Assembly: GCF_003600835.1 (NCBI RefSeq)
Contig: NZ_NQYC01000001.1
Coordinates: 992,001-1,056,000 of the forward strand
Direction: 5' to 3'
Source: Bacillus sp. PK3_68
Lineage (GTDB): Bacteria > Bacillota > Bacilli > Bacillales > Domibacillaceae
Length of the DNA: 64,000 bases
Shown here: positions 1-14,631 of the stretch, in pieces
Position numbering within the stretch: position 1 is the first letter of the stretch
Layout: each line of letters begins with the position of its first letter
Notes under the pieces: generated by a model
The model's database searches: none
The model's input: the letters and a program-made list of their open reading frames with translations, nothing else
What the model was told of the DNA's origin: nothing
Position numbers and translations under genes: made by a program

Positions 1-2694
1 CCGGTCAAATACAATGATGACTCCCCGATCTGTGCTGCTGCGAATGAGCCGGCCGAACCCTTGCCGAAAGCGCAGAACCGCTTGGGGAAGAGAGTAAGCA
101 GAAAAAGCATTTTTCCTCAATTGCGCCAGTTGTTCATTTTTTGCTTGGGTAAACGGCTCATCAGGCGGAGAAAATGGTAGTCGGACAATAATAAGACAAG
201 ATAAATCTTCTCCTGGAATGTCAATTCCCTCCCAAAAGCTGTTTGTACCAAATAAAATCGCTTTGTCAAACCTTTGGAAATTTCTTGTCAAACGGGTGCG
301 ACTTCCACTTGTAATTCCCTGGGCCAACAAAATAAAATCATCAAGAAGGCCGCTATCTTTCATTAGGTCATACGTTCTTTTCATCATGTCAAACGACGTA
401 AACAAAACGAGCATTCTTCCTTTGGCCGCTTCAGCAACGGCTGTTAAATGATTGGCTAAAGATTCGATGTATTCTTCCTGATGGACATTTTTTACTTCCG
501 GAACATCATTTGGAATGATCATCCGGCAATTTTGCTTAAAATCAAACGGAGATGGCAAAATGACCTCTTTATGATCAAATGCAGAAAGACCTGTCTCTTC
601 CGCGAAAAAACGAAAAGAGCCGTTGACTGCCAGTGTTGCCGAAGTAAACACTACATGTTTTTGCTGAAGCAAGGTGTCTTGAATCATTTTGGCCGCTTCC
701 ATTGGATGAGATTTAATGACAAACGTGTTAGCGAAGGAGCGGCTATCTCCTTCCATCCAAATAACTTCATTCTCTTCCGGACGGAAAATCAACCGTAAGA
801 GCGTAAGCTGAAATTCCTCCCATTCTGCAATCACCTCTTTAAAGCTATCCGTCTTCACTTGTTCTGAAGCCGACATTTGTTCTCTGAATTCATCCAGCTC
901 TCCAAGCCGGCGCTTCATCCAGGTGATAAGATTTCCCAATAACGAATCTATTCTTTCTGCACCATACTCGATATGATCCCAATAACGGAGGTTTCTCGTT
1001 TCATCAGTTATTCTCAACTGACGCCGGTGCCAGTTTCCTGACCGCTTTTTCGTATGCTGCTCAAAATACATTTGCAATACTTTGAACCATTCGTCACTTT
1101 CAAATTGAAGCTCTTGCAGCCTGCGATTGACAGACAACCGTTCGTCTTCTTTCTCTGGCTTGCCATACTTGGAAAATAGCTTTTCAATTTGATAAAATAA
1201 CTCTTTCTGTTCATAGGTACCAATTTTTGAAAACAACTGTTTACACGTGAGTTGGTCAATCGCTAAGCCGAGACGATCTCTTGCTGCCCGTTCAAAATGA
1301 TGCGCTTCATCAATAATTACATGACGGCATGCAGGAAAGAATGCGTTTTTTGCCATTAAATCCGCAACAAGTAAAGAATGGTTCGTAATAATAATATCTG
1401 CTTCTCTCGCCTGTTTTTTAGCGTGCAAATAAAAGTCTTTATCAAGCCAGGCTTTGCGCCCTTTATTCATGTAATCGCTATCCTGCCGAATTTCATTCCA
1501 AAATAATTCCCCGCCCGAGGAAAGATTGATTTCATCTACATCGCCCGTTTCTGTTTCAAGCAGCCACGTTAAAATTTGCATTTTAGCAAGTGTAAAGTCA
1601 TAATTATCGCTCATTCCCTTGAGGCTTTGGGAAAATTTGTATAAATCAATGTAATGGTTTCTGCCTTTCAATACAGTGGCCCTTATTGGAAAAGGCACCA
1701 GCTGTTGCAGCTGATAAATTTCCTTTTGCAGCAGTTGCTGCTGCAAAATCACTGTATATGTACTAACAATAACTGGTTCTTTCTCCTGTTTGCTCTGATA
1801 AACAGCCGGCAAAAGGTAACCAAGAGATTTTCCTGTGCCGGTTCCCGCCTCTACTGCTAAATGCTGTGAAGTTTGCAAGGAGCGATGGACAAGATCCATC
1901 ATGTCCATTTGGCTTTCACGAAGCTCAAAATGAGGAACACCCTCAATTAATGCGGCTTTTTCCTCTACTGTTTCCGGGTAAGCAGGGGGCGTTTTTTCAA
2001 TGATTCTCTGTTCAATTCTCTTTTTACGAAGAGCAAGCCCCCGATATACTTCGGTCTGTTCAGGCAGCTGCTCAATATTAGATTGCTTATCTTGAATAAT
2101 CGCTTTAATTAATAAATAAATATCGCTTTTCAAGCGTATAGAGAGCTTTTCCAGTTTCTCAAGGGTTACCATTGGCAGGCTCTCAAGCTTTTCAATCATC
2201 ATCAGCAGCATTTCTGCTGTTACATAAGCGTCACTGTCAGCTTGATGAGGACGATCATGATGAAGCCCTAGATTGCTGGTTAATTCCCCCAACTTGTAGC
2301 TATCTGATGTTGGCCAAACAATTCTAGCCAATTCCACCGTATCGATAGCAGGACCTGAAAAAGCACTGTATCCCGCTCGTTCAAGCTCCGACTGTAGGAA
2401 TTGAAGGTCAAAAGCGACGTTATGAGCAACAAAGACTGCTCCCTCTAACAAGGGAAGAATGTCCTTGGCGGCTTCATAGAAAAACGGGGCATCTTTCACG
2501 AGATCGTCAGAAATACCTGTCAGTTCTTCAATAAACACAGGAATCGGCATTTCTGGATTAAAAAAAGAGGTGTACTGTCCAGTAATTTGCTTATTTTCAA
2601 TTACAACAAAGGAAGCCTGTATAATACGGTCATTTCCTTTCGACGCATGGCCAGTCGTTTCAAAGTCGGTTACGACAAATTTAAAATCCTTCAT
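1..2694 (-). CDS. dinG: ATP-dependent helicase/exonuclease DinG (3' end beyond the window)
   Basis: The first 898 codons are present; the family is about 930 residues, so only a short C-terminal tail is missing. The N-terminus carries a DnaQ-type 3'-5' exonuclease domain: DFETT near residue 9, HNVAFDL, and HQADSDAY as Exo III. An XPD/DinG superfamily 2 helicase follows, with Walker A AGTGTGKS near residue 280 and DEAH in VIIDEAHHFE near residue 463. Motif VI, QGFGRLIRSS, lies at the left edge. The role known for the family is unwinding and processing of DNA, including R-loops and damaged forks. The ATG at 2694 follows an AAAGGTG ribosome site. In B. subtilis dinG directly follows panD; here a catabolic island separates them. 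Confidence 0.95.
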   Translation of the reverse strand, partial: MKDFKFVVTDFETTGHASKGNDRIIQASFVVIENKQITGQYTSFFNPEMPIPVFIEELTGISDDLVKDAPFFYEAAKDILPLLEGAVFVAHNVAFDLQFLQSELERAGYSAFSGPAIDTVELARIVWPTSDSYKLGELTSNLGLHHDRPHQADSDAYVTAEMLLMMIEKLESLPMVTLEKLEKLSIRLKSDIYLLIKAIIQDKQSNIEQLPEQTEVYRGLALRKKRIEQRIIEKTPPAYPETVEEKAALIEGVPHFELRESQMDMMDLVHRSLQTSQHLAVEAGTGTGKSLGYLLPAVYQSKQEKEPVIVSTYTVILQQQLLQKEIYQLQQLVPFPIRATVLKGRNHYIDLYKFSQSLKGMSDNYDFTLAKMQILTWLLETETGDVDEINLSSGGELFWNEIRQDSDYMNKGRKAWLDKDFYLHAKKQAREADIIITNHSLLVADLMAKNAFFPACRHVIIDEAHHFERAARDRLGLAIDQLTCKQLFSKIGTYEQKELFYQIEKLFSKYGKPEKEDERLSVNRRLQELQFESDEWFKVLQMYFEQHTKKRSGNWHRRQLRITDETRNLRYWDHIEYGAERIDSLLGNLITWMKRRLGELDEFREQMSASEQVKTDSFKEVIAEWEEFQLTLLRLIFRPEENEVIWMEGDSRSFANTFVIKSHPMEAAKMIQDTLLQQKHVVFTSATLAVNGSFRFFAEETGLSAFDHKEVILPSPFDFKQNCRMIIPNDVPEVKNVHQEEYIESLANHLTAVAEAAKGRMLVLFTSFDMMKRTYDLMKDSGLLDDFILLAQGITSGSRTRLTRNFQRFDKAILFGTNSFWEGIDIPGEDLSCLIIVRLPFSPPDEPFTQAKNEQLAQLRKNAFSAYSLPQAVLRFRQGFGRLIRSSTDRGVIIVFDR

Positions 2695-2827
2695 AGTCGG
2701 TTACGCACCTTTTTCCGTTAAACTTTCTTCACCAGTTTAACATATGAATTCATGTAAGAGCCAGACAGGACAAAAATCTGTTGGGATGCTGCTCTCTCTC
2801 TGATATACCTTCTTCATTATCATGACG

Positions 2828-2857
2828 TTGACAACTGTACCGTCCGGACGGTACAAT
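2828..2857 (+). promoter_or_regulatory. Promoter with overlapping palindromic operator of the TetR-type gene
   Basis: A consensus -35 TTGACA (2828-2833) is followed after 18 bp by TACAAT (2852-2857). A perfect 20-bp palindrome, TGTACCGTCCGGACGGTACA (2836-2855), fills the spacer and enters the -10. A dimeric TetR-type repressor bound there would block the promoter, so autorepression is the natural reading. The palindrome and hexamers are seen directly; the regulator bound to it is inferred from adjacency. Confidence 0.75.
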
Positions 2858-2893
2858 TAAAAGACAAAATTTTTAGAAAACGAGGCGTTGGAT

Positions 2894-3445
2894 ATGATCA
2901 CTGAAAAAAAAGATACAAAAGAGCGAATTATTGAAGCAGTCTATGCCTTAGTTCAAAAACAAGGAATCGCAAAAATGACTATGGAGACAGTAGCCGAAAA
3001 AGCAGGAATTAGTAAAAGTGGATTATTTTACCACTTCCCAACGAAAGAATTATTAATTGAGGCGATGGTGAATCGGCTATTTAATCAATTTGACCACCAG
3101 CTTAACCAAGAATATGAAGCGGACCAAAAACCGGGTGGACGAACACGCTCTTATATTAAAACGACCTTTCTTATGCACGATCAGGAAGAGAATGAGTTTG
3201 TGGTCGCGTTGCTTGCTGCACTTGTAAACAATCCTGAACTGCTCAGGCCGGCTAAAGATTATTATGAACTATGGCAAAGCCAATTGGAAAATGACGAAAT
3301 AGACCCGGTCATTGCTACCATCATCCGCTTAACGACCGACGGTTTGTGGTTTTCAGAACTATTTGGTTTAGCTCCTATTGATTCAGGTTTACGTCAGCGC
3401 GTTTATGAAACCCTTTCCAATTTAATAGACAAACGAGAGAAATGA
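2894..3445 (+). CDS. TetR/AcrR family transcriptional regulator
   Basis: This 183-residue protein has a typical N-terminal TetR helix-turn-helix (MTMETVAEKAGISKSGLFYHF, roughly residues 28-48) and a divergent C-terminal ligand-binding half. An upstream in-frame TTG at 2888 is too close to GAGG (2882-2885); the ATG at 2894 has an 8-base spacing and is chosen. It is preceded by the palindromic promoter at 2828-2857. No efflux pump is adjacent. The next gene, 66 bp downstream on the same strand with no terminator between, is a sigma-54 activator, so the two are probably co-transcribed. The ligand is unknown; a metabolite of the neighbouring amine-oxidation operon is a reasonable guess. Confidence 0.9.
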   Translation: MITEKKDTKERIIEAVYALVQKQGIAKMTMETVAEKAGISKSGLFYHFPTKELLIEAMVNRLFNQFDHQLNQEYEADQKPGGRTRSYIKTTFLMHDQEENEFVVALLAALVNNPELLRPAKDYYELWQSQLENDEIDPVIATIIRLTTDGLWFSELFGLAPIDSGLRQRVYETLSNLIDKREK

Positions 3446-3511
3446 TTTTATCTTTTTTCTTTCATTGTTTATGTATTTCTACCGTTATTCCAAGAGGGAG
3501 TGATTAAGAGC

Positions 3512-4447
3512 ATGCTCACTTTTGTTTCGCAAAATAAGCATATGGACAAATTGATGAAAACACTGGAAAGAATAGCACTCTTTGATACGACAGTTATTAT
3601 TTATGGGGAGTCAGGAACAGGAAAGAGCTTGTTAGCAAAATATATTCATGAAAAAAGCTCCCGTGCAAAGGAAGCGTGCATCATTATTAATTGCGCTGCT
3701 CTCCCTGAGCATTTGTTAGAATCGGAACTCTTTGGCTATGCGGACGGCGCTTTTACAGGAGCCAACAAAGCAGGAAAAATCGGCTTAATCGAAGCGGCAA
3801 ATCACGGTACACTCTTTCTTGACGAAATCGGAGAGCTGCCGCTTAATATCCAAGCGAAGCTGCTTCAGGTTCTTCAAGACCGCGAATTCACCCCTATTGG
3901 TGAAACAGCCTCAAGAAAAGTCGATATTCGTATTATTGCAGCTACCAACCAAAACTTAAGAGAAATGGTAAGAAGAAAGAAATTTAGAGAGGATCTCTAC
4001 TATAGATTAAATGTGGTGGACGTAAAAGTGCCGGCGTTAAGAGAACGGATGGATGATATCGTTCCTTTAACCAATCATTTTTTGGAGAAATTCAATAAAA
4101 AATTCAATACAGAGCGCACCATCTCCAAAGACGTCTACCGTTTTTTTAATGAATATACTTGGCCTGGGAATGTAAGAGAGCTTGAAAACTTAATTGAAAA
4201 GCTCATAGTTGTCTCTGAGACTTGTATCGATATCGATCATATCCCTGATACTCTGCAAGAACAAGCCGATCATCACGCCACTGATTCCCCCTTTACATCT
4301 TTTGACCAATCACTCGAAGAATTTGAAAAGAAAATTATCATTGAGGCATATAACCGCTTTAAAAATTATAGAAAGGTGGCTGAATTTCTTAAAATTAGCC
4401 AATCGAGAGCGGCAAGATTAATTAGAAAGTACTCTGCAAGCTGTTAA
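3512..4447 (+). CDS. Sigma-54 (SigL) dependent transcriptional activator lacking a sensor domain
   Basis: The protein is essentially an AAA+ sigma-54 interaction module from its first residues. It shows Walker A GESGTGKS (32-39), the sigma-54 contact loop GAFTGA (79-84), Walker B LFLDEIGE (101-108) and WPGNVREL. A C-terminal helix-turn-helix (KVAEFLKISQSRAARLI) completes it. At 311 residues it lacks the N-terminal PAS, GAF or receiver domain typical of Bacillus activators such as RocR or AcoR. An in-frame GTG at 3500 is an alternative start; the ATG at 3512 follows AGAGGGAG. It converges on a four-gene operon that has a consensus -24/-12 promoter, which it most likely activates. With no sensor of its own, control may come through expression by the TetR gene upstream. 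Confidence 0.92.
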   Translation: MLTFVSQNKHMDKLMKTLERIALFDTTVIIYGESGTGKSLLAKYIHEKSSRAKEACIIINCAALPEHLLESELFGYADGAFTGANKAGKIGLIEAANHGTLFLDEIGELPLNIQAKLLQVLQDREFTPIGETASRKVDIRIIAATNQNLREMVRRKKFREDLYYRLNVVDVKVPALRERMDDIVPLTNHFLEKFNKKFNTERTISKDVYRFFNEYTWPGNVRELENLIEKLIVVSETCIDIDHIPDTLQEQADHHATDSPFTSFDQSLEEFEKKIIIEAYNRFKNYRKVAEFLKISQSRAARLIRKYSASC

Positions 4448-4457
4448 TTTATAACCA

Positions 4458-4499
4458 AGCAGAAGGAGGAGAGGCATACATTCCTCTCCTCCTTCTGCT
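4458..4499. terminator. Bidirectional terminator between convergent units
   Basis: A perfect 17-bp stem (AGCAGAAGGAGGAGAGG and its complement) with an 8-base loop lies between the convergent activator gene and the reductase gene. Confidence 0.85.
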
Positions 4500-4532
4500 A
4501 AAATCATTTCGCTTTCAGTAAGTCTACCTCTA

Positions 4533-5546
4533 TCAAACCGTCACTTTATCTTTTTCCCCCATAATGCTTGTGCTGTGAAGCGGCTGTACCTTTGCCTTCG
4601 GATCAATATATACCTTCGCATTGCTTACAGCAGCGGGCGCTTCACCAAACCCGCTTGCTATTAACTTCACTTTACCTTCATACGTACAAATATCTCCTGC
4701 TGCATAAATGCCTTCCACGCTTGTCTCCATTTTTGAATTTACGACGATTGAACTCTTTTTAATTTCTAGGTCCCACTCCTTGATCGGACCAAGAGAAGAC
4801 ACAAATCCGTATGTGACTAACACATCATCTACGTCTAACACCCGTTCTTCACCGGTTTTTACCTCTTCCAAGACAACTTGATCAATTTGTTGTTGTCCGC
4901 GTAATCCGACTGGAACAAACGGCACGGCGACTTCAACTCTAGATTTTTTCAATAGCTCTACACTGTGTTCATGCGCACGAAACTTCTCCCTACGGTGGAC
5001 AAGTGTAACCTTTTCTGCAATTGATTCCAGCATTAAGGCCCAGTCAACAGCAGAATCTCCTCCACCAAAAATAGCCACTTTTTTACCTTCGTACCGGCTT
5101 AAATCATTGATAAAGTAATGAAGATTCTCCTTCTCAAATTTATCTGCTCCCTCGATCTGCAGCTTTCTCGGCTGAAAGGCCCCATTGCCAGCCGTAATAA
5201 TAATCGTTTTGGAATAATGAAGATCTTTATCTGTTACAATTTTAAATAAACCGTTCTCTAGCTTCTCAACATGCTCTACTGTTTGCTCCAGGCAAACAAT
5301 AGGATGGAACACATTCATCTGCGCTATTAAATTATCAATTAATTCTTGCGCACGGACTTTTGGGAAACCGGCAATATCATAAATAAATTTTTCTGGATAC
5401 AACGCTGAAAGTTGTCCTCCTAATTGAGGAAGACTTTCAATAATCTTAACCGATGACTGACGCATCCCTGCATAGAAAGCAGTAAATAATCCGACTGGTC
5501 CGCCCCCAATAATTGTCATATCAACCATTTCATTTGTATTTTTCAT
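4533..5546 (-). CDS. Ferredoxin/flavodoxin-NADP reductase, thioredoxin-reductase-like (YumC/YcgT type)
   Basis: A 337-residue FAD/NAD(P) oxidoreductase. It has the N-terminal FAD site [14 protein letters not shown] near residue 14, a second dinucleotide site [10 protein letters not shown] near residue 160, and the C-terminal FAD signature GDICTYEGK. The CxxC pair of true thioredoxin reductases is absent, as expected for YumC-type enzymes that pass electrons from NADPH to ferredoxin or flavodoxin. The ATG follows CAGGAGG. It is the last gene of the four-gene operon with a Rieske oxygenase, so its likely job is to feed electrons, through a ferredoxin encoded elsewhere, to that oxygenase. That pairing is inference from context. 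Confidence 0.88.
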
Positions 5547-5602
5547 TATAGCCTCCTGAGGTAAGACATTGATTAGTTTTGTTCTTATTAATTTTTGAAT
5601 AT

Positions 5603-6997
5603 TCAGATATTAACTTCGTTTACTGCTGTATGGTTCTTATCCTCTTCAATGAGTGCAGGCTCGGACTCATCAAAATCAAACATTGGCGCTGATTTTTTAA
5701 ACATTTTTGTAATGCACAGCAGGAAAATAAAGCCCGCTGTATTCCAGAACAAACCGAGTAAAAGTGCCTGTGCGTCCATACTGTACCACATAATCGAAAG
5801 AAAACCGATCCCTATTAATGGAAAGATCAAATACAAAAATGTCTCTTTTATAGACCGCCTTTTATTCTTCACATAGTAGTAAACAATGACGGATAAATTA
5901 ACAAATGTAAAAGCCGTAAATGCTCCAAAACTTATCAGCGAAGCGGCCGTCACCAGGTCAAAGAATACCGCCGTTAAAGCCACTCCTCCAGAAATAATAA
6001 TGTTATAAATAGGAATGCCGGAGCGAGGCGTGACGTATCCGAATATTTTCCGAGGAAGGACATTATCTCGCCCCATTGCGTACAATAAGCGCGAAATACT
6101 TAATTGTGCTGCTATTCCTCCCGATATATTACTGACGATAATGATTCCCAGAAAGATAGAGGCAAAAAGCATCCCTCCAATTTGGGGCGCTATTTCAGCT
6201 GCTGCTGCTTCAGGGTCGTGAAAAATCGATACATCCGGATAACTTGCCTGTAAGAAATAAGTAATCACCGTGTACGTGATTCCTGTATAAAGTGCTAAAG
6301 CAATCATCGCCCTGGGTATCGTTTTCGTTGGGTTTATCGTTTCCTCTGCCAGCGTACTCATTGCATCAAAGCCAACAAATGAATAAGCTAAAATAGTTAC
6401 CCCTGCCAAAACAGCTGAAAAAGTTAAATTAGCTGAATAGAGCGGTTCTAATGAAAATAAACTTCCTGCCTCCTCTCTGTTCATCATCCCTCCAATCAAC
6501 AAGGCAACAAAAATACCGGAGATGAGTACTTGTAATAATACGAAAAATGTACTAAACGATACAGCCACCTTAATATTAAATAAATTCGCCACACTTATTA
6601 GCAATATCGGAATAGCTACCCATAACCATTCCGGTACAGAAGGGAAATAAGCAGACATATAAATTTTTATCGCTAAGGCATAGACCATTGGAAGAAAGAG
6701 ATAATCACATAAAGCAGACCATCCAACGAGAAAGCCGATGTTGGGATGAAAAGTCTTTTGGACATACGTATAGGCCGAACCCGCACTTGGAAATGCTTTT
6801 ACCATCTGGACATAACTCAATACTGTAAAAATTATGGCACACATAGCGAACATATACACTAAAGGAACGTGTCCCTTAGTGGCAAGGGACGCGATTCCAA
6901 AAGTATCAAAGACGGTTGAAGGCGTTAGCAAAGCTAATCCGAGCACAAAAACATGAATAAACTTTAAGCGTCTTTTTAGTCCGACCTTTTCATTCAT
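5603..6997 (-). CDS. APC-family amine/amino-acid permease, PuuP-like
   Basis: A 464-residue membrane protein with about 12 predicted hydrophobic segments and the APC pattern. The N-terminal stretch [15 protein letters not shown] and the later [16 protein letters not shown]-like region (here [17 protein letters not shown]) and [14 protein letters not shown] closely recall the Escherichia coli putrescine importer PuuP, from memory. Its start lies 6 bases after the Rieske stop codon, with the GAGGGGGT ribosome site inside the end of that gene, so the two are coupled. In context it should import the compound oxidised by the operon. A polyamine or a small quaternary amine or amino acid are both possible; the substrate cannot be settled from sequence. 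Confidence 0.87.
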
Positions 6998-7003
6998 TAA
7001 TTC

Positions 7004-8119
7004 TTAGACCCCCTCTAATGCCTTCAAAACTAAACCATGAAAATGATGAACCCCATGCTCGCTTATGGATGATCTTTCATGATCAATCACATAACGGCCA
7101 TCCACATATCCCTTTGATCGAAGTCCGCGTTGCACGCTTTCAACTAAACTAATATCTTCGGGCGTTAATACTTCATCTTGATATTTGATATTTTCCCATC
7201 CTTCTTCCGATGGCTCCTTCGTTAAATAGTAAAATTCCAAGTATTCAATGGAAGACTCTGGTCCATTCGGCTCGATATACATAATGATTAATCCCGGCTC
7301 TCCCGGCATAACGTCGATAGCCAAAGTCGGCCATAACCAATAAGAAAGATACGTTTCGATATCCTGATCATTTGTTTCACTGTCAGTATTGCAAACTAAT
7401 TTCCCTTTGCTGTTGCTCGTTTGCGCCACATAATAATCTTGCGGTTCAATTTTATAACTCTTCATATCGATCAACTCGACGAATTGAGGATGGGCCACTT
7501 GGCAATGATGACATTCAAGGTAATTGTCTACTACGTTCTTCCAATTAGCCTTAATATCATATTTAATCCGATGTGACAATGTTAAACCGTCCAGCTGAGG
7601 GATATGAGCACGAATTTCCTCTTCTAATCCCGGCATCATTTCCCGCATTGGTTTAGCGTTCGGATCAAGATTAACAAAGATAAAGTTTAAAAAAGTTTCT
7701 ACCCGTACAGGGGTTAAGCACGCTTCTTCAAGATCAAAATTTTTAATTTGATCAACGGCACGGCCCCGGTTAAACTGACCGTCTAAATGAAATGTCCATG
7801 CATGATAAGGACAAGCAATGACGGATTTTTTCCCTTCTCCTTCGACCAGTTCATGCCCCCTGTGCGGACATACATTATAAAAACCTCTAATGACATGATC
7901 CTTCCCTTTAACGATCATAATATTTTGTTCAAATAGTTGAAAGGTAAAGTATTTCCCTGGGATATCTACTTTTTCTATATGCCCGGCATAAATCCAGTTT
8001 TTATAAAAGATCTTTTCCTTATCTAATTTTAATGCTTCATCACTTGTGTAATAATCCGATGGCAATGTATATGATTCCCGTGCGTCTGCTTTATAGCGAT
8101 GAATCATGTTTGTACTCAT
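7004..8119 (-). CDS. Rieske non-heme iron oxygenase, quaternary-ammonium (CntA/choline monooxygenase-like) type
   Basis: A 371-residue oxygenase alpha subunit. The Rieske [2Fe-2S] ligands are visible as CPHRGH (C84, H86) and CPYHAW (C103, H106). The catalytic region NYLECHHCQVAHP gives bridging Glu202 and iron ligands His205 and His210; Asp322 in the LTPEDISLVES stretch fits as the third ligand. Most Rieske oxygenases bridge with Asp; Glu at this place and this ligand spacing is typical of carnitine monooxygenase CntA and relatives acting on carnitine, choline or betaines. The start is the ATG at 8119 with GGGGGG upstream, not the TTG at 8134. The operon adds an aldehyde dehydrogenase, permease and NADPH reductase, implying oxidative cleavage or demethylation of an imported amine. 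The exact substrate is unknown. Confidence 0.9.
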   Translation of the reverse strand: MSTNMIHRYKADARESYTLPSDYYTSDEALKLDKEKIFYKNWIYAGHIEKVDIPGKYFTFQLFEQNIMIVKGKDHVIRGFYNVCPHRGHELVEGEGKKSVIACPYHAWTFHLDGQFNRGRAVDQIKNFDLEEACLTPVRVETFLNFIFVNLDPNAKPMREMMPGLEEEIRAHIPQLDGLTLSHRIKYDIKANWKNVVDNYLECHHCQVAHPQFVELIDMKSYKIEPQDYYVAQTSNSKGKLVCNTDSETNDQDIETYLSYWLWPTLAIDVMPGEPGLIIMYIEPNGPESSIEYLEFYYLTKEPSEEGWENIKYQDEVLTPEDISLVESVQRGLRSKGYVDGRYVIDHERSSISEHGVHHFHGLVLKALEGV

Positions 8120-8195
8120 GTTTTTACCCCCCAATATGTTTTGCTTTTACTGGCTTGTTGAGCCCTTGCAGCATTTTCAACTAGCGCTTTCTTTT

Positions 8196-8241
8196 AAAAA
8201 AGAAGTGAGAAATGGATCTTGTTTGTATCTAATCCACTTCT
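8196..8241 (-). terminator. Terminator-like hairpin between aldehyde dehydrogenase and Rieske genes
   Basis: On the minus strand AGAAGTG pairs with CACTTCT across a long loop and is followed by six T. It lies in the 136-base gap of the operon and could attenuate expression of the downstream three genes. The stem is short, so this is tentative. Confidence 0.4.
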
Positions 8242-8255
8242 CAACTAAAGTTTCA

Positions 8256-9746
8256 TTAGCCCGGGAACCAGCCAACCGGTTCTACATTAAGATTAATATT
8301 AATTTGTTTGATTTCCTGAAAATCTTCGAGTCCATATGTTCCAAGGCTTCGACCGATTCCACTTTGCTTGTATCCCCCCCATGGTGCTTCCACGTAAGTA
8401 GGATGATAAGCATTTATCCATGTAATGCCGGCACGTACTTGTTTAATGACACGCAAGGCTTTTGCTCCATCATTTGAGAACACAGCCCCTGCCAAGCCAA
8501 AATCTGTTTCGTTCGCAAGCTGAATGGCTTCATCTTCACTTTTAAACTTTTGAATCGTTACAACCGGTCCGAAAATTTCTTCTTTTACAATCCGCATATC
8601 AGAAGTTACATTTGTGAAGACTGTCGGCTCAATGAAGAAGCCTTGATCTAATCCATCAGTTAGCAAGCGGCTTCCACCACAAGCAAGAATAGCTCCCTCC
8701 TGCTTGCCGATTTCGATATAATTTAAAATAGCATTCATCTGCTGTTCACTTGCAATGGCTCCAACTTGGGAATCTTCATTCATTCCTGGACCTACTTTAA
8801 TTTGCTTTGCTCGCTCTATGTAACGCTCTACAAATTGATCATAGATGCTCTCCTCGACAAGAATGCGGCTTCCTGAAGAGCATACCTGTCCAGCTCCGAA
8901 GAAAATGCCGAATAACGCGTAGTCAACCGCTGTTTCAAAATCAGCATCAGCAAAAATAATATTCGGTGATTTGCCCCCAAGTTCAAGAGAAATCTTCTTT
9001 AGATTTCCAGCTGCTGCCTTCATAATTTCTCGGCCAACATTTGTGCTTCCGGTGAATGAAATCATATCTACATCATGACTTTCAGCAATTGTCTGGCCAA
9101 CAACTGCCCCTCTTCCCATCACGAGATTCATCACTCCCTGTGGAACCCCCACTTCTTCAATAATCTCGACCAACTTCATCGCTGTAATAGGCGTTGCTTC
9201 TGCCGGCTTATACACGATGGTGTTACCAGCTGCAAGAGCCGGTGCTATTTTCCACACACTCATCAAAAGGGGAAAGTTCCACGGTACAATCAATCCAGCA
9301 ACTCCCACTGGCTCACGAACGACCATAGCTTGAACGTTTTCAGGCACTTGGTATGTTTCTCCTTCCGGCGTTAGAATTAAGCCGGCATAATACCGGAAGC
9401 ATGTAGCAGCATCAGCTACATCAAACTCTGCCTCCGCTTTCAGCTTGCCGTTATCCATGACTTCCAAGTTTACGAGCTCCTCAAACTTTTCATCAATTTT
9501 ATCTGCAATTTTATTTAAGTATTGGGCCCGTTCATGTGTCGTTAAGCCTGACCAGATACCGCTTTCAAAAGCTGCTCTGGCAGCTGCAATCGCTTCTTCT
9601 GTCTCCTCTTTTGTTGCTCTTGGCGCTCTGGCAATCACTTCTTGTGTCGCCGGATTGATCACAATATTCTCGTCTCCGTTTTTTGCTGTTTTCCATTCTC
9701 CATTGACAAACATTTTCAATTCTAATACCGATGTGTCTACTGACAT
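8256..9746 (-). CDS. NAD(P)-dependent aldehyde dehydrogenase (betaine-aldehyde dehydrogenase-like)
   Basis: A 496-residue member of the aldehyde dehydrogenase superfamily. Visible motifs are PWNFP (oxyanion Asn157), FTGSTNVGR at 231-239, the general base Glu255 in LELGGKSPN and nucleophile Cys289 in GAGQVCSSGSR. It is the first gene of the sigma-54 operon, with ribosome site AGGAGGAAA before the ATG at 9746 and a -24/-12 promoter about 45 bp upstream. It probably oxidises the aldehyde released by the Rieske oxygenase: betaine aldehyde if the substrate is choline, malic semialdehyde if carnitine. Superfamily sequence does not discriminate these, so substrate is inferred from neighbours only. 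Confidence 0.92.
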   Translation of the reverse strand: MSVDTSVLELKMFVNGEWKTAKNGDENIVINPATQEVIARAPRATKEETEEAIAAARAAFESGIWSGLTTHERAQYLNKIADKIDEKFEELVNLEVMDNGKLKAEAEFDVADAATCFRYYAGLILTPEGETYQVPENVQAMVVREPVGVAGLIVPWNFPLLMSVWKIAPALAAGNTIVYKPAEATPITAMKLVEIIEEVGVPQGVMNLVMGRGAVVGQTIAESHDVDMISFTGSTNVGREIMKAAAGNLKKISLELGGKSPNIIFADADFETAVDYALFGIFFGAGQVCSSGSRILVEESIYDQFVERYIERAKQIKVGPGMNEDSQVGAIASEQQMNAILNYIEIGKQEGAILACGGSRLLTDGLDQGFFIEPTVFTNVTSDMRIVKEEIFGPVVTIQKFKSEDEAIQLANETDFGLAGAVFSNDGAKALRVIKQVRAGITWINAYHPTYVEAPWGGYKQSGIGRSLGTYGLEDFQEIKQININLNVEPVGWFPG

Positions 9747-9788
9747 ATACTTTCCTCCTGCTATAATTTTTCGTCCACATTAAACATA

Positions 9789-9804
9789 TGCAACAAGCGT
9801 GCCA
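9789..9804 (-). promoter_or_regulatory. Sigma-54 (SigL) -24/-12 promoter of the oxygenase operon
   Basis: Minus strand reads TGGCACGCTTGTTGCA, an exact match to the core consensus TGGCAC-N5-TTGCA. The expected start point is near 9778, giving a leader of about 32 bases before the ATG at 9746. An enhancer-binding protein gene at the other end of the island supplies the activator this promoter type needs. Confidence 0.9.
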
Positions 9805-9878
9805 ATGACCGGTAGTCTATAAACCCCTTACATATCAAGTGTTCAATCTCCTTATATAGAAACACGTTCGTTCAAAAT

Positions 9879-9894
9879 TGGCTGATTTCAACCA
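9879..9894. promoter_or_regulatory. Candidate upstream activating site for the sigma-54 activator
   Basis: An imperfect palindrome of form TGGyTGAnnTCArCCA (12 of 16 symmetric positions) is centred about 108 bp upstream of the predicted start point. This is the usual distance for activator sites at sigma-54 promoters. The site is seen; binding by the 3512-4447 product is inferred. Confidence 0.5.
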
Positions 9895-10019
9895 GAATTG
9901 ACACATTTACCGCTTTCATCAGACGGCTACAGTTTTTAAAAACTTTGGCGCTGTATACCTGTTGTTGATTTCTGCTGCAGGCGGACGCTGTCCGAGAAGC
10001 TTGACAGGCACAAAAAAGA

Positions 10020-10060
10020 GAGAGCAATCCCTCCCTTTACCAAAGGGAGGGATTGCTCTC
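10020..10060 (-). terminator. Strong terminator after panD
   Basis: A 19-bp perfect stem (GAGAGCAATCCCTCCCTTT and complement) with a 3-base loop is followed on the minus strand by CTTTTTTG. It ends the panBCD transcript and insulates the SigL operon from it. Confidence 0.9.
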
Positions 10061-10132
10061 AACTAATTTTAACTCTGCTTGTTAAAGCTATCTTCTGCTA
10101 TAGAAAGCTCCACCTCTATGTGGACTTTCCAA

Positions 10133-10516
10133 TTATATAATTGTACCAGCAATCTCCTCGTGAAGAAGCTGTTCAATCTCATTATTTTCCCCAGCCACCA
10201 CTACTTTCGGACGGTGATCCTTTACCTTCTCCTCGGCGACCATGACATAGGAGATAATAATAACTTTATCACCCGGTTGGACAAGTCTTGCTGCCGCCCC
10301 ATTTAAACAGATCACGCCGCTGTTCCGTTCACCTGGAATAATATAAGTTTCTAAACGGGCACCATTGTTATTGTTGACAATCTGCACTTTCTCATTTGCC
10401 ATCATTCCAGCGGCGTCCATTAAATTTTGGTCAATCGTAATGCTGCCCACATAATTTAAGTTCGCTTCCGTTACGGTAGCCCGGTGAATTTTCCCATTCA
10501 TCATTGTACGAAACAT
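10133..10516 (-). CDS. panD: Aspartate 1-decarboxylase (pyruvoyl proenzyme)
   Basis: Makes beta-alanine from aspartate for pantothenate. The 127-residue proenzyme starts [18 protein letters not shown] and has the self-cleavage site Gly24-Ser25 in YVGSITID, where Ser25 becomes the pyruvoyl group; Tyr58-type and [12 protein letters not shown] stretches follow. A longer upstream reading from 10555 exists, but the family start is the ATG at 10516. This start lies one base after the panC stop and uses the GGAGGAGAA site inside the panC end. Last gene of the panBCD operon. Confidence 0.97.
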
Positions 10517-10517
10517 T

Positions 10518-11375
10518 TCAGCATTCTCCTCCAACCGTAAAAATAATGTTATCAATTAAACGCGCTTTTGAATAATTGATCGCTGCTGCCAGAATCATCT
10601 TTCCTTGCACTTCTTTTAAAGAGTTTAATTCCGGATAAGAAAGCAAGTCCACATAATCAATTGTTGCGCCAGTGTGATTCTCTAAATAGGAAGCAGTCAA
10701 ATCAATAATTTCTTTTACACTTTTTCCGCCCTGTTCTGCTGCCTGTACGCCGTGCTGGAGAGCTTTTTGCAAATATGGCGCCTTTGTGCGTTCCTCTTCC
10801 GTTAAATAGACGTTGCGTGAGCTTTTTGCCAGTCCGTCCTCTTCTCTGACAGTCTCCACTCCTACAACTTCCACCGGAAAGTTTAATGACTTCACGAGAC
10901 CGTCAATGACAGCAAACTGTTGGGCATCTTTCAAGCCAAAATAAGCTTTATCTGGCTCAGCTAAATGAAATAGCTTCGTGACGACCTTCACTACCCCATC
11001 AAAATGTCCTGGCCGCTTCACGCCGCACAGCTTGTCTGTTCTGTCTGTAACTGTCATAGTTATAATAGAAGGCTCCGGATACATCTCTTCTACTTCGGGA
11101 GCAAAAAGACAGTCTACACCTGCTGAAGCGGCGAGTTGCTCATCTCGGTCTAAATCCCGCGGATAACGTTCAAAGTCTTCATTTGGTCCAAATTGCAGCG
11201 GGTTGACGAAGATGCTCATAATAATCGTGTCATTTTCCTGCTGTGCTTTATTGGCGAGGGTAAGATGCCCTTCATGAAGAAAGCCCATTGTCGGCACCAG
11301 GCCAATCTGGTGTCCAGCCTGTTTTTCCGTCCGGACAAAGGCTTTTAATTCCTTAACTGTCTTAATTACTCTCAT
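10518..11375 (-). CDS. panC: Pantothenate synthetase
   Basis: ATP-dependent ligation of pantoate and beta-alanine to pantothenate. The 285-residue cytidylyltransferase-like protein has [13 protein letters not shown] near residue 28 with the HxGH nucleotide motif. [13 protein letters not shown] and the later KSSRNVYL loop, corresponding to the KMSKS position, follow. Its ATG overlaps the panB stop by 4 bases (ATGA), indicating translational coupling. Length is normal for Bacillus PanC. Confidence 0.97.
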
Positions 11376-12211
11376 GAACGTGCTCCTTCATACAAAGCTT
11401 CCAGTTCTTCTTCTTTCATCGTAAATGAATGCTCCACTCCCGGGAATATTCCACCTTTTACTTCTTTTACATAAGCAGAAACGGCCGGTATAATTTCATC
11501 GTTCACATTGCTGTACGATTTAACAAATTTAGGTGTTCGGCTTACCCCATATTGAATAAGGTCATGGTAGACAAGCACTTGTCCATCCGTTTCCTTGCCT
11601 GCCCCAATTCCGATTATCGGAATAGTAAGAGCGCTTGCCACTTGAGCTGCAATCTGATAAGGAACACATTCAAGCACGGCCATAAATGCCCCTGCCTGCT
11701 CAAGCTTCTTTGCATCATCCAGCAGCTTTCGGGCTGCCTCTGCTGTTTTCCCCTGCACTTTATAACCGCCAAGAACCCCAACGGACTGCGGAGTTAGCCC
11801 TAAGTGGGCGACTGTTGGTACGCCAGCCTGCGTCAAATCCCGAACGGCCTCTACTGCCTCTTCGCCGCCCTCAATTTTTACAGCATGCGCTCCTGCTTCC
11901 TGCATAAGCGCTCTTGCTGCCCGCATCGTTTCTTCTCGGCTAATCTGATACGACATAAAAGGCAAGTCAGTAACGACAAATGTTTCTTTCGCCCCCCGCT
12001 TTACTGCCTTTGTATGATGAATCATATCGTCCAGGGTAACAGGAACGGTTGATTCATACCCAAGTACAACCATACCAAGAGAGTCTCCGACTAAAATGAT
12101 GTCCGCCCCACCCTCTTCAGATAATTTAGCAGAAGGATAATCATAGGCGGTGATCATGGCAATTTTTTCACCGTTTGCTTTCATTTTGATAAAGTCACTC
12201 GTTTGCTTCAT
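11372..12211 (-). CDS. panB: 3-methyl-2-oxobutanoate hydroxymethyltransferase
   Basis: First step of the pantoate branch: transfers a hydroxymethyl group from methylenetetrahydrofolate to alpha-ketoisovalerate. The 279-residue TIM barrel shows [26 protein letters not shown] (Mg2+ and substrate site) and KIEGGEE, all family signatures. It follows a structured leader of about 200 bases ending in an intrinsic terminator (12253-12420). The ribosome site is AAGGAGGAAGCGT before ATG 12211. First gene of panBCD. Confidence 0.97.
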
Positions 12212-12252
12212 GTACGCTTCCTCCTTTTTCGATCAGAGGAGACGAAACAATC

Positions 12253-12287
12253 AGTAAATAAAAAGGGTCCTTCAGACAGAAGGACCC
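12253..12287 (-). terminator. Leader terminator (attenuator) upstream of panB
   Basis: Minus strand GGGTCCTTC-loop-GAAGGACCC (9-bp perfect stem, 12265-12287) followed by TTTTTATTTACT, placed 42-76 bases before the panB start and downstream of a promoter. A terminator inside the leader implies regulated read-through. Confidence 0.8.
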
Positions 12288-12428
12288 GAATAATTAGATT
12301 CGTTGTTTCGACCCTCTGTCCCTGTCCTTACGGATCAAGGCAGAACTTTTCGCTTATTTTATTATTCCAGCGGCTGACTTCGGACAAGTGCAGTTCTCTT
12401 TAAGATACTGCCCGCCTTCATTATAACA
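12288..12428 (-). promoter_or_regulatory. Structured panB leader with promoter, candidate pan-motif RNA
   Basis: An extended -10 (TGTTATAAT on the minus strand, 12420-12428) predicts a start near 12413. The leader RNA then folds two 22-base hairpins, at 12390-12411 (GCAGT/ACTGC stem) and 12322-12343 (CTGCCTT/AAGGACAG stem). Each has a single bulged A on otherwise paired arms. The published pan RNA motif lies upstream of pan genes in Bacillota and has stems with conserved bulged A residues, often in two copies, so this is a plausible member. No T-box signature is seen. Assignment to pan RNA is from memory of the motif and needs a covariance search. Confidence 0.55.
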
Positions 12429-12509
12429 ACATCTTTTTTCTTTGACTATTAGAAATTTACCTGATCATAATAGGATGAATAAGTAACTATTAAGAGAGAA
12501 GGTGAGAAG

Positions 12510-13574
12510 ATGAAAAAATGGTTGTTGATCGCTCTCGTCCTGCTTACAGGCTGCTCTTCACCTGAAAAAGCTCCCGAAGAAGAATCTTCCGAAAATATTC
12601 CTGCAAGCACATCAGCTGGAATAAAAGTTATCGCTAAAAAACTGGAGGTTCCATGGAACATTACTAAGTTGGATAACAGCTTCTTTATTAGCCAGCGTAA
12701 AGGTACAATTGCCGAAATTTATTCTGATGGAAAGAAAAAAGAAATGGAATTGAAGCTGGATCAACCGGTACTGCACGAAGGAGAAGGCGGCTTATTAGGC
12801 TTTGAGCTTGATCCTGCCTTTTCCAGCAACGGACGCGCTTACATCTATCATACGTACAAGGAAAAAGAAAAAATAATGAATCGGATTGTACAAATTCAAA
12901 AGAAAGGCAGCGGCTGGCAAGAGACAAAAGAACTGTTGGCCAGCATTCCCGGCGGTACGATCCACAATGGCGGACGGATCGCTCTTGGTCCTGACCATAA
13001 GCTTTACGTAACTGTAGGAGATGCCGGTGTAAAGGAGTCTGCACAAAGTAAACAGCAGCTATCCGGGAAAATTTTACGTTTAAATTTAGATGGCTCTGTT
13101 CCCTCTGACAATCCTTTTAAAGGTTCCTATATTTTTTCCTATGGACATCGCAATCCGCAAGGGATGGCCTGGAGCAAAGACGGTACCATGTATGCGACTG
13201 AACATGGGCAAAGCGCTCATGATGAAGTGAACAAAATTAGTCCAGGGAAAAATTATGGCTGGCCTCTCATTCAAGGAGACGAGAAAAGAGAAGGAATGGA
13301 ATCACCTTTCATTCATTCTGGCGAGGAAACGTGGGCTCCCTCCGGTCTAGCTTATAGTAAAGGACAACTCTTTATTGCTACCCTTAAGGGAGAAAGGCTG
13401 CTTGCTTTCGATCTTAAACATCGGAAAATGACGGTTTCTTTTCAAGGCGAAGGACGCTTGAGAGATGTATATGCGAGCGATCACTATTTATATATTGTGA
13501 CAAATAATACAGATGGCCGAGGGACACCTTCTCAAGATGATGATCGACTTCTTCTTTTAAAAGAACCGCATTAA
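12510..13574 (+). CDS. Lipoprotein of the PQQ-type glucose/sorbosone dehydrogenase family
   Basis: A 354-residue exported lipoprotein: the N-terminal MKKWLLIALVLLTGCSS has a lipobox with Cys15. The mature part is a six-bladed propeller of the GSDH/YliI type, with VPWNITKLD, EGGLLGFELDP, HNGGRIALGPD, YGHRNPQGMAW and WPLIQGDE, all family landmarks. Relatives oxidise aldose sugars with PQQ; whether this organism supplies PQQ is unknown. It sits alone on the plus strand between birA and panB, genes adjacent in B. subtilis, so it looks like an insertion in the backbone. RBS GAGAAGGTGAGAAG precedes the ATG. Confidence 0.88.
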   Translation: MKKWLLIALVLLTGCSSPEKAPEEESSENIPASTSAGIKVIAKKLEVPWNITKLDNSFFISQRKGTIAEIYSDGKKKEMELKLDQPVLHEGEGGLLGFELDPAFSSNGRAYIYHTYKEKEKIMNRIVQIQKKGSGWQETKELLASIPGGTIHNGGRIALGPDHKLYVTVGDAGVKESAQSKQQLSGKILRLNLDGSVPSDNPFKGSYIFSYGHRNPQGMAWSKDGTMYATEHGQSAHDEVNKISPGKNYGWPLIQGDEKREGMESPFIHSGEETWAPSGLAYSKGQLFIATLKGERLLAFDLKHRKMTVSFQGEGRLRDVYASDHYLYIVTNNTDGRGTPSQDDDRLLLLKEPH

Positions 13575-13599
13575 TGGCAAAGGGTTATGCCTTAAATAG

Positions 13600-13636
13600 A
13601 AAACTGCCCGTGCTGCTGTCCAGCGGGCAGTTTTTT
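13600..13636. terminator. Bidirectional terminator between dehydrogenase and birA
   Basis: Stem CTGCCC/GGGCAG extended by GCTG/CAGC, flanked by AAAA and TTTTTT, between convergent genes. Confidence 0.8.
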
Positions 13637-13641
13637 CTACA

Positions 13642-14631
13642 TCATTCATCTGTCCTTGTATCGATTTCGATATCAGCGGAGTAAATATCATGGATGGTGC
13701 CGTCATCATCAAGCAGCTTCAATACACCTTCTTCTGTGATACCGAGTGCTTTGCCGTGAATCGTACCAGTCACTGTCCGCGCCGTAATTTTTTTACCGAT
13801 CGACAGCGCGTGCTTTTCCCAGCGTTTTTTTATGTTAATAAATCCTTCTTTCATGTATATGTCATAATAATTTTCAAGGTTTTTTAAAATTTCCTGAACT
13901 AGCTGCGAGCGTGAGACTGCCTCTCCTTTTTCAATAGCAAGCGAGGTGGCCACTTCTTTCAATTCGTCAGGAAACTCTTTTTGATTTACGTTAATGCCGA
14001 TACCGATAATAATTGAATGAATGCGGTCAGCGTCCGCTTGCAGTTCTGTTAAAATACCGGTAATCTTCTTGCCGTTTAACAAAATATCGTTCGGCCACTT
14101 GATCTCTGGCTGCAATCCGGTCACTTCAATAATCGCTTCAACAACGGAAACTGCCGTAATCAACGTGAACTGAGGCGCTTTATAAGGCGGCAAAGACGGT
14201 TTTAATAGTACGCTCATCCAAATGCCCGTATATTTTGGAGAATGCCATGCACGTGTCATTCTTCCGCGTCCCGCTGTCTGTTCTTCTGCAATCACTACCG
14301 TACCTTCCTTAAAAGGCTCTTGTGCCAAGCGATGAGCCTCCTTCTGAGTCGAAGGGGTAGATTCCAATGCGACGATTTCTTTTCCAAGCCAGTCGGTCTG
14401 CAGGCCGATTAAAATTTCATTTTCCGTTACTTTATCCGGCTTTGTAAGAATGCGGTAGCCCTTTTTTCGTACCGCTTCCAATTCAAATCCCTCTTGGCGC
14501 AATGATTCAATGTGCTTCCAAATGGCCGTCCGCGAGCAGCCGAGGATTTCTGCAAGCGCCTGACCAGATACAAATTCCCCATCCGCTCTTGAAAACGCCT
14601 CTAATAATTGCTGTTTTACAGAAGATTGCAC
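13642..14631 (-). CDS. birA: Bifunctional biotin operon repressor / biotin-protein ligase
   Basis: Activates biotin to biotinyl-AMP, attaches it to carboxylase carrier proteins and, when idle, represses biotin genes. The 329-residue protein has an N-terminal winged helix (residues about 5-60, LGCSRTAIWKHIESL). The ligase domain has the biotinyl-AMP loop GRGRMTRAW (121-129), the KWPNDI motif and a C-terminal SH3-like cap. The presence of the DNA-binding domain makes it the regulatory, group II type. It overlaps cca by 16 bases. Confidence 0.96.
   Translation of the reverse strand: MQSSVKQQLLEAFSRADGEFVSGQALAEILGCSRTAIWKHIESLRQEGFELEAVRKKGYRILTKPDKVTENEILIGLQTDWLGKEIVALESTPSTQKEAHRLAQEPFKEGTVVIAEEQTAGRGRMTRAWHSPKYTGIWMSVLLKPSLPPYKAPQFTLITAVSVVEAIIEVTGLQPEIKWPNDILLNGKKITGILTELQADADRIHSIIIGIGINVNQKEFPDELKEVATSLAIEKGEAVSRSQLVQEILKNLENYYDIYMKEGFINIKKRWEKHALSIGKKITARTVTGTIHGKALGITEEGVLKLLDDDGTIHDIYSADIEIDTRTDE

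Follow-up and report, generated by a model that had tools for sequence, protein, structure and literature searches.

Group V Rieske oxygenases are of interest because some of them release trimethylamine. Among the described systems, the CntA/CntB carnitine operon of Acinetobacter baumannii (YeaW/YeaX in Escherichia coli) brings together a group Va Rieske oxygenase, an aldehyde dehydrogenase (ALDH) following it, a transporter and a reductase, and the available text of PMC11353897 reports that the carnitine pathway of A. baumannii to D-malate and pyruvate has been reconstituted. According to the accessible part of PMC7948474, clade Va enzymes (carnitine, choline, benzalkonium) carry Tyr or Phe at position 203 and the betaine and stachydrine demethylases of clade Vb carry Asn; that of PMC10952381 describes a bridging role for Glu205 and a Cys pair present in some group V enzymes. 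CntA genes have already been mentioned in Bacillus smithii (PMC9508527, available text), so that group V in Bacillus is in print. Here we describe a six-gene island in a stretch of 64,000 nt from Bacillus sp. PK3_68 (contig NZ_NQYC01000001.1, positions 992,001 to 1,056,000, forward strand), hereafter the window, in whose own coordinates all positions are given. With rather better than even confidence, we read the island as an acquired operon for the breakdown of a small N-methylated amine, probably quaternary and lacking a carboxylate; this amine would be imported, cleaved at a C-N bond and oxidised as an aldehyde under the control of a TetR-sigma-54 cascade, and it is the sequence that points to this class of substrate.

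When we compared the island with the CntA/CntB operon, we found the same four kinds of component. The two differ in the transporter (BCCT in CntA/CntB, a PuuP-like permease in the island), in the reductase (CntB versus an FNR2-type enzyme), in control (LysR versus sigma-54 and TetR), in the D-malate dehydrogenase that only the CntA/CntB operon contains, and in the oxygenase pocket and ALDH residues. An earlier note, made from the letters of this DNA, had placed six genes and a sigma-54 promoter here; all of them are where it put them, and a gene for sigma-54 is present in the genome. It had overlooked the missing sensor domain of the activator and likewise the single-copy TetR operator, the altered CntA-type pocket and the separate amine clusters of the genome. 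The island is real and rare; its combination of genes and its control are new, its kind is known, and it is explained only in part. A literature search by title or abstract start, with most subscription journals outside its coverage, found no description of this operon.

The island, its site and its relatives

The island is flanked by dinG and panD, as judged from open reading frame and domain calls in the window. On the plus strand, tetR is followed by a sigma-54 activator gene; on the minus strand, convergent on these two, lie the ALDH, Rieske oxygenase, permease and reductase genes (9746 down to 4533). Two related loci serve for comparison below, L021 of Pseudalkalibacillus decolorationis and L114, from a genome of the class. 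The features are as follows.

2828..2857, plus strand: sigma-A-type promoter of tetR and the activator, TTGACA-18-TACAAT (11 of 12 consensus letters)
2836..2855: probable TetR operator, a perfect 20-bp palindrome, TGTACCGTCCGGACGGTACA (10 of 10 pairs), inside the tetR promoter
2897..3445, plus strand: TetR-type repressor of 182 amino acids with a TetR_C_28 domain (Pfam; 75% identical in L021, 47% in L114)
3512..4447, plus strand: sigma-54 activator, AAA+ and HTH domains only (Pfam)
4458..4499: inverted repeat between the two convergent units (20-nt arms, 95% complementary, 2 nt apart)
4533..5546, minus strand: FNR2/YumC-type ferredoxin-NADP reductase (PDB matches)
5603..6997, minus strand: PuuP-like amine permease of the APC family (45.6% identical to E. 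coli PuuP, 80% in L021)
7004..8119, minus strand: putative group Va Rieske oxygenase (CntA, 293.9 bits)
8256..9746, minus strand: ALDH of the betaine aldehyde dehydrogenase (BADH)/aminoaldehyde type (TIGR01804, 609.2 bits; pocket residues)
9789..9804, minus strand (read 9804-9789): sigma-54 promoter TGGCACGCTTGTTGCA of the ALDH-Rieske-permease-reductase operon, an exact -24/-12 match
9888..9901, minus strand: TCAATTCTGGTTGA, a weak candidate activator site with one match in the window, not claimed

In three of three congeneric genomes panD and dinG are adjacent, with about 130 to 270 bp between them (measured between alignment ends), and the island is missing from this site in all three; in the window the two genes lie about 7.4 kb apart. 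Since the congeners have no island between the two genes, its gain in the lineage of Bacillus sp. PK3_68 would be the simplest reading. The G+C content of the island is 40.5%, compared with 42.7% in the rest of the window, a difference that alone is no proof of transfer. None of the six island genes is a mobility gene by Pfam or NCBIfam, and no mobile-element ends were recognised among the repeats listed for 2600-10200. The inverted repeat at 4458..4499 is a possible two-way terminator; the terminator scan did not report it.

L021 holds five of the six genes, with identities of 75% for TetR, 68% for the activator, 76% for the ALDH, 79% for the oxygenase and 80% for the permease; no reductase gene was found in the 13.4 kb of this locus that we examined. 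L114 shows identities of 47% for TetR and 54% for the activator, with a gene of the small multidrug resistance family (PF00893, 103 bits) lying between them. At 9165-10452 of L114, a fragment of the oxygenase (query residues 7-241, 63%) is fused to a fragment of the permease (272-461, 56%), and the locus thus appears to be a decayed copy of the island in which an internal deletion broke both genes. Of the three copies, one of them decayed, all have tetR, activator, oxygenase and permease, two have the ALDH, and only that of the window has the reductase.

The gene set is rare, with one relative carrying five of the six genes and one broken relative. Our genome samples were overlapping and partial. 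A scan of genome contigs returned the L021 oxygenase (79%) and a 37% paralogue; outside the own genome, neither the 61 relatives nor the 397 genomes sampled from the order gave an oxygenase match above 42% identity. Matches of any kind occurred in 18 of the 61 relatives (E <= 0.001) and 25 of the 397 order genomes (E <= 1e-60). At E <= 1e-80 the enzyme was matched in two of 398 genomes of the class (its own and G553), one of 11 in the family of G553 (G553 itself) and one of 398 in the phylum (its own). Plasmids gave 925 matching records, with a top identity of 43-44% among the best 25 of the 925. We opened five records of the alphaproteobacterial plasmid clade: in four the gene is followed by genes for a 3-keto-5-aminohexanoate cleavage enzyme, an aminobutyraldehyde dehydrogenase and a 3-hydroxyacyl-CoA dehydrogenase-type protein, and in the fifth there are choline-sulphatase and SDR genes. 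Three of these records have choline-type ABC genes nearby, and one has a gene for a choline-binding protein. Such surroundings differ from those of the island and do not reveal its substrate.

Oxygenase, dehydrogenase, permease and reductase

The oxygenase carries the Pfam Rieske and Ring_hydroxyl_A domains, and its closest solved structure is CntA, with an almost full-length alignment. The residues at CntA His208, His213 and Asp323 (the iron site), at the bridging Glu205, at Cys206/Cys209 and at Tyr203 are all conserved; the Glu205 and Cys206/Cys209 positions are kept in the window, in L021 and in 51 of the 51 other aligned rows. In a tree of 53 oxygenases, the window and L021 enzymes group with CntA (here and in the pocket counts, the A. 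baumannii gene) and with a clade of plasmid-borne enzymes from rhizobia, roseobacters and one Pseudomonas with high support (100/99), and the 42 other Bacillales rows form the opposite side. Support for joining the window and L021 enzymes to the plasmid clade is lower (91/88), with a program warning of long branches there and a root placed only at the midpoint. Tree and pocket counts leave out the incomplete L085 oxygenase frame; the tree also lacks the L114 fragment, which stops short of the pocket. On its residues, the enzyme classes as a group Va member on the CntA side, and the island would represent a Bacillales lineage separate from the commoner group V enzymes, with a reductase partner other than CntB and a pocket pointing to another substrate.

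Of the six pocket residues named in the available text of PMC7948474, Tyr225 is kept and five are changed (Phe258Tyr, Asn270Asp, Tyr295Leu, Tyr315Gln and Phe319Leu), and all five changes are identical in L021. Position 295 is Leu in the window and L021 and Tyr in all 51 other rows; Leu at 319 is also found in five alphaproteobacterial-type rows. The same text describes a polar contact of Tyr295 with the substrate and a lower affinity when the carboxyl group is missing. The loss of Tyr295 in an altered pocket argues for a substrate without a carboxylate, and what the pocket has lost would be the feature for the carboxylate end.

The ALDH falls under the cut-off of the BADH model (668.6). The accessible part of PMC11353897 gives Arg166, Arg284 and Ser447 as the residues by which malic semialdehyde dehydrogenase binds its substrate, and at these positions the island enzyme has Trp, Phe and Thr. 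It has the APWGG motif in common with the BADH of the genome, encoded on contig 2, to which it is 53% identical. Two paralogues are closer, one (69%) in a putrescine cluster, L123, and one (80%) in L124, a dimethylamine-monooxygenase-like cluster. The lineage of the island ALDH is associated with amine-derived aldehydes.

The permease is homologous to E. coli PuuP over its full length (45.6% identity over 443 aligned residues). The reductase matches PDB 6gas (537 bits) and the FNR2 of Bacillus subtilis (3lzw, 522.5 bits), and the genome encodes four paralogues (66-74%). FNR2 enzymes reduce ferredoxin, which would be the electron carrier here. There are seven PF13370 ferredoxin matches in the genome, three of them adjoining FNR2 genes, and the island enzyme probably borrows a ferredoxin encoded elsewhere. 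We also fetched 42 other Bacillales neighbourhoods with a group V Rieske gene: an FNR2 gene was present in 16, with a ferredoxin gene nearby in 13 of the 16, a sigma-54 activator anywhere in the fetched stretch in 31, and a relative of the window TetR in one (L021), these being raw counts without a random-locus control and from genomes many of which are related. FNR2 beside a Rieske gene is an ordinary, wider Bacillales habit.

Control of the operon

The sequence TGGCACGCTTGTTGCA is the single exact match to the -24/-12 pattern TGGCACNNNNNTTGCW in the 64 kb, where 0.06 would be expected and 5 of 100 shuffles gave at least one. Allowing one mismatch, we found 5 matches in the window as against 2.56 expected, which leaves the exact match as the telling one. 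A -24/-12 site precedes the structural genes in all three copies, with 12 of 12 letters in the window and 10 of 12 in both L021 and L114, and the genome has one sigma-54 gene (213.7 bits).

The activator has the domains of bacterial enhancer-binding proteins (Sigma54_activat 233.4 bits, HTH_50 28.6 bits in Pfam). Starting 66 bp downstream of tetR, the protein opens with the AAA+ domain and is without the N-terminal sensor that is usual, though not universal, in such proteins. The L114 activator likewise has no sensor, whereas that of L021 has a PAS domain. In the activator tree the three copies cluster (SH-aLRT 89), window and L021 together at 98. As the three group together and only L021 has a PAS domain, the tree would have the sensor lost twice, or lost once and then regained. 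This natural pair, tetR with a sensor-less activator and a PAS-bearing relative, could be used to see how sigma-54 systems change their input signal.

Upstream of tetR in L021 and L114 we observed the same hexamer layout with an 18-bp spacer. The palindrome at 2836..2855, whose 10 of 10 pairs were equalled by none of 2000 random windows, is the sole site in the genome when up to three mismatches are allowed. At the equivalent place L114 has 8 of 10 pairs, a score of at least 8 being reached by 87 of 2000 random windows. The window palindrome is thus a probable TetR operator. The best full-length solved match of the repressor is 2yve (46 bits), labelled in the database as a transcriptional regulator only, which we take to be CgmR, a binder of cationic drugs. 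We infer that tetR and the activator gene are co-transcribed, and the activator would be functional without a sensor domain; sensing seems to have been transferred from the activator to TetR. In L021, TetR and PAS inputs may act jointly.

Two described kinds of system come close to this arrangement. The SoxR and GabR systems of Bacillus thuringiensis place amine catabolism under sigma-54 as in the island; GabR differs in having a PAS sensor, and the accessible text of these sources (PMC4941409; PMC4279683) mentions no TetR partner. PspF of E. coli, 35% identical to the island activator, also consists of AAA+ and HTH only. PspF differs in being controlled by a protein, PspA (PMC3128695, available text), whereas the island activator is probably controlled through TetR at transcription. 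A TCAA-N-TTGA sequence was considered as a shared activator motif; with 1 match in the window, 4 (an overlapping set) in L021 and none in L114, it is not claimed.

Substrate, rival explanations and other amine clusters

In the pathway that we propose, TetR would repress the promoter common to itself and the sensor-less activator until freed by a ligand, which we suppose to be the substrate or the aldehyde. The activator would then be produced and fire the sigma-54 promoter, so that the operon is transcribed by sigma-54 polymerase. The permease would import the amine, the oxygenase would hydroxylate the carbon beside the nitrogen, and the C-N bond would break to give an aldehyde and a methylated amine, the aldehyde being oxidised to the acid by the BADH/aminoaldehyde-type dehydrogenase. 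Electrons would pass from NADPH to the FNR2-type reductase, on to a 4Fe-4S ferredoxin whose gene lies elsewhere, and finally to the Rieske cluster.

Several observations weigh against this reading. The reductase is missing from L021 and L114, and the ALDH from one relative. No ferredoxin gene was found in the 64-kb window. The nearest relatives of the oxygenase outside these loci (43-44%, alphaproteobacterial plasmids) stand in another gene setting, with BKACE-type enzymes. At pocket positions 258, 270 and 315 other Bacillales rows, presumed carnitine enzymes included, differ from CntA too, which loosens the pocket argument. Members of the permease family match at 20 further places in the genome (E <= 1e-20), some of these matches being split or broken, so the PuuP likeness alone cannot fix the substrate and would indicate an amine-type class at best. 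In control, the L021 activator retains its PAS domain and the L021 palindrome has 6 of 10 pairs, a chance level.

Three other clusters of the genome bear on the substrate. L047 (G000:C1:1800000-1815000) holds at 5155-13591 genes for FNR2, a 4Fe-4S ferredoxin, an oxygenase, an ALDH, DmlA and BCCT, with a divergent PAS-type activator. It matches the A. baumannii carnitine operon except for the reductase, FNR2 and ferredoxin standing in the place of CntB, and the layout recurs in other Bacillales. These carnitine-type operons share with the island a sigma-54 activator, a group V Rieske gene, an ALDH and FNR2; they differ in the PAS-type activator, in DmlA, often in BCCT and ferredoxin, and in oxygenases that fall on the other side of the tree. 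A choline cluster on contig 2 encodes GbsB (748.5 bits, cut-off 550), BADH (689.6 bits, cut-off 668.6) and CudC (234.4 bits, cut-off 218). The putrescine cluster L123 has a putrescine aminotransferase (NF008570, 774.4 bits, cut-off 612; TIGR03372, 648.1 bits, just under 658.65), a glutamate dehydrogenase, a permease 46% identical to that of the island and a sigma-54 activator. It resembles the island in activator, PuuP-like permease and ALDH, but has aminotransferase and glutamate dehydrogenase where the island has the oxygenase, and its activator is of 709 amino acids.

Falling with CntA, its nearest solved structure, on one side of the tree (100/99), the oxygenase invites comparison with a carnitine or gamma-butyrobetaine monooxygenase, and the earlier note had listed carnitine as a candidate. 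We consider such an operon very improbable: five of six pocket residues are altered and Tyr295 is lost, the ALDH is without the malic semialdehyde residues, the island has no DmlA or BCCT gene, and the whole carnitine gene set sits in L047. N-demethylation by a group Vb enzyme of glycine betaine or stachydrine, substrates that the earlier note had also put up for testing, draws on the GbcA model (NF058607) being the best NCBIfam match of the oxygenase, but the 155.7 bits, mostly from the N-terminal half, are far under the cut-off of 670 and position 203 is Tyr, not the Asn of the Vb demethylases; this is the least probable of the readings considered. A plant-like route from choline, also named in the earlier note, to glycine betaine, kept as an osmoprotectant, would make the Rieske enzyme a choline monooxygenase and the ALDH a BADH. 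By description, the plant pair resembles the island in a ferredoxin-fed Rieske enzyme followed by a BADH-type enzyme; choline monooxygenases fall in group Va (PMC7948474), the plant enzyme takes its electrons from ferredoxin (PMC6157903; both sources as far as their available text goes), and the BADH model gives the island ALDH 609.2 bits. We nevertheless think it improbable, since GbsB, BADH and CudC already provide this oxidation here and the ALDH is under the BADH cut-off and just 53% identical to the contig 2 enzyme. To our knowledge, PuuP-like permeases are not the usual carriers of betaine or choline.

An oxidative putrescine-type route, in which the oxygenase would act on a primary or secondary diamine or polyamine and not on a quaternary amine, would accommodate the PuuP-like permease, an ALDH lineage in common with the putrescine aminotransferase cluster and the Asp that replaces Asn270. 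It is unlikely in our estimate, as the position of Tyr203 for cation-pi contact is kept, putrescine transamination is already provided for by a cluster of the genome and, by the available text of PMC7948474, CntA does not accept non-quaternary analogues. What remains preferred from the earlier list is "another methylated amine". Within the reading of a small N-methylated amine without a carboxylate, our first guess, a tentative one, is an N-trimethylated diamine, followed by choline or another amino alcohol used as a nutrient, which we rate lower. More specifically, and with considerable doubt, the island could represent an undescribed Bacillota pathway from N-trimethylated diamines or a similar dication to an omega-amino acid and trimethylamine, with a PuuP-type importer, a Rieske oxygenase and an aminoaldehyde dehydrogenase, in which TetR took over sensing from a PAS-less activator. 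A trimethylated nitrogen would block an aminotransferase, and this would account for the island having an oxygenase in the place that an aminotransferase takes in the related putrescine cluster.

The component assignments of the earlier note hold well: SigL (sigma-54) control agrees with the exact -24/-12 site, the activator and the sigma-54 gene, an oxygenase of the quaternary-ammonium group with the CntA match and group Va residues, and a PuuP-like permease and an NADPH:ferredoxin-type reductase with the identity to PuuP and the match to 3lzw. Its "complete" unit for uptake, oxidation and control has its parts present, but the word is too strong for a window without a ferredoxin gene and a reductase missing in both relatives. 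The note would have been refuted by relatives that do not keep the set together, and this is partly the case: tetR, activator, oxygenase and permease stay together in all three copies, the ALDH in two and the reductase in one.

Further amine-related genes were observed in the same genome. L124 (G000:C1:2964000-2980000) contains at 1776-8816 an NCS1-type permease, a glutamyl-tRNA reductase-like gene, a haem-dependent N-demethylase-like protein, a reductase and the 80% ALDH paralogue; its DmmA-family protein scores 59.4 bits against a cut-off of 60. L048 (G000:C1:1820000-1835000) has at 5598-13767 a group V Rieske cluster with FNR2, ALDH, an AMP-ligase, another permease and a leucine-dehydrogenase-like gene, these labels coming from a reading of the open reading frames. 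At 7004-10863 of L076 (G000:C1:2149000-2167000), FNR2 and ferredoxin genes adjoin a PaaA/PaaC-type gene, so that this pair may also work with other oxygenases. The genome also holds 20 other ALDH matches to TIGR01804 at E <= 1e-100, which together with the permeases make up a large repertoire for amine uptake and aldehyde oxidation.

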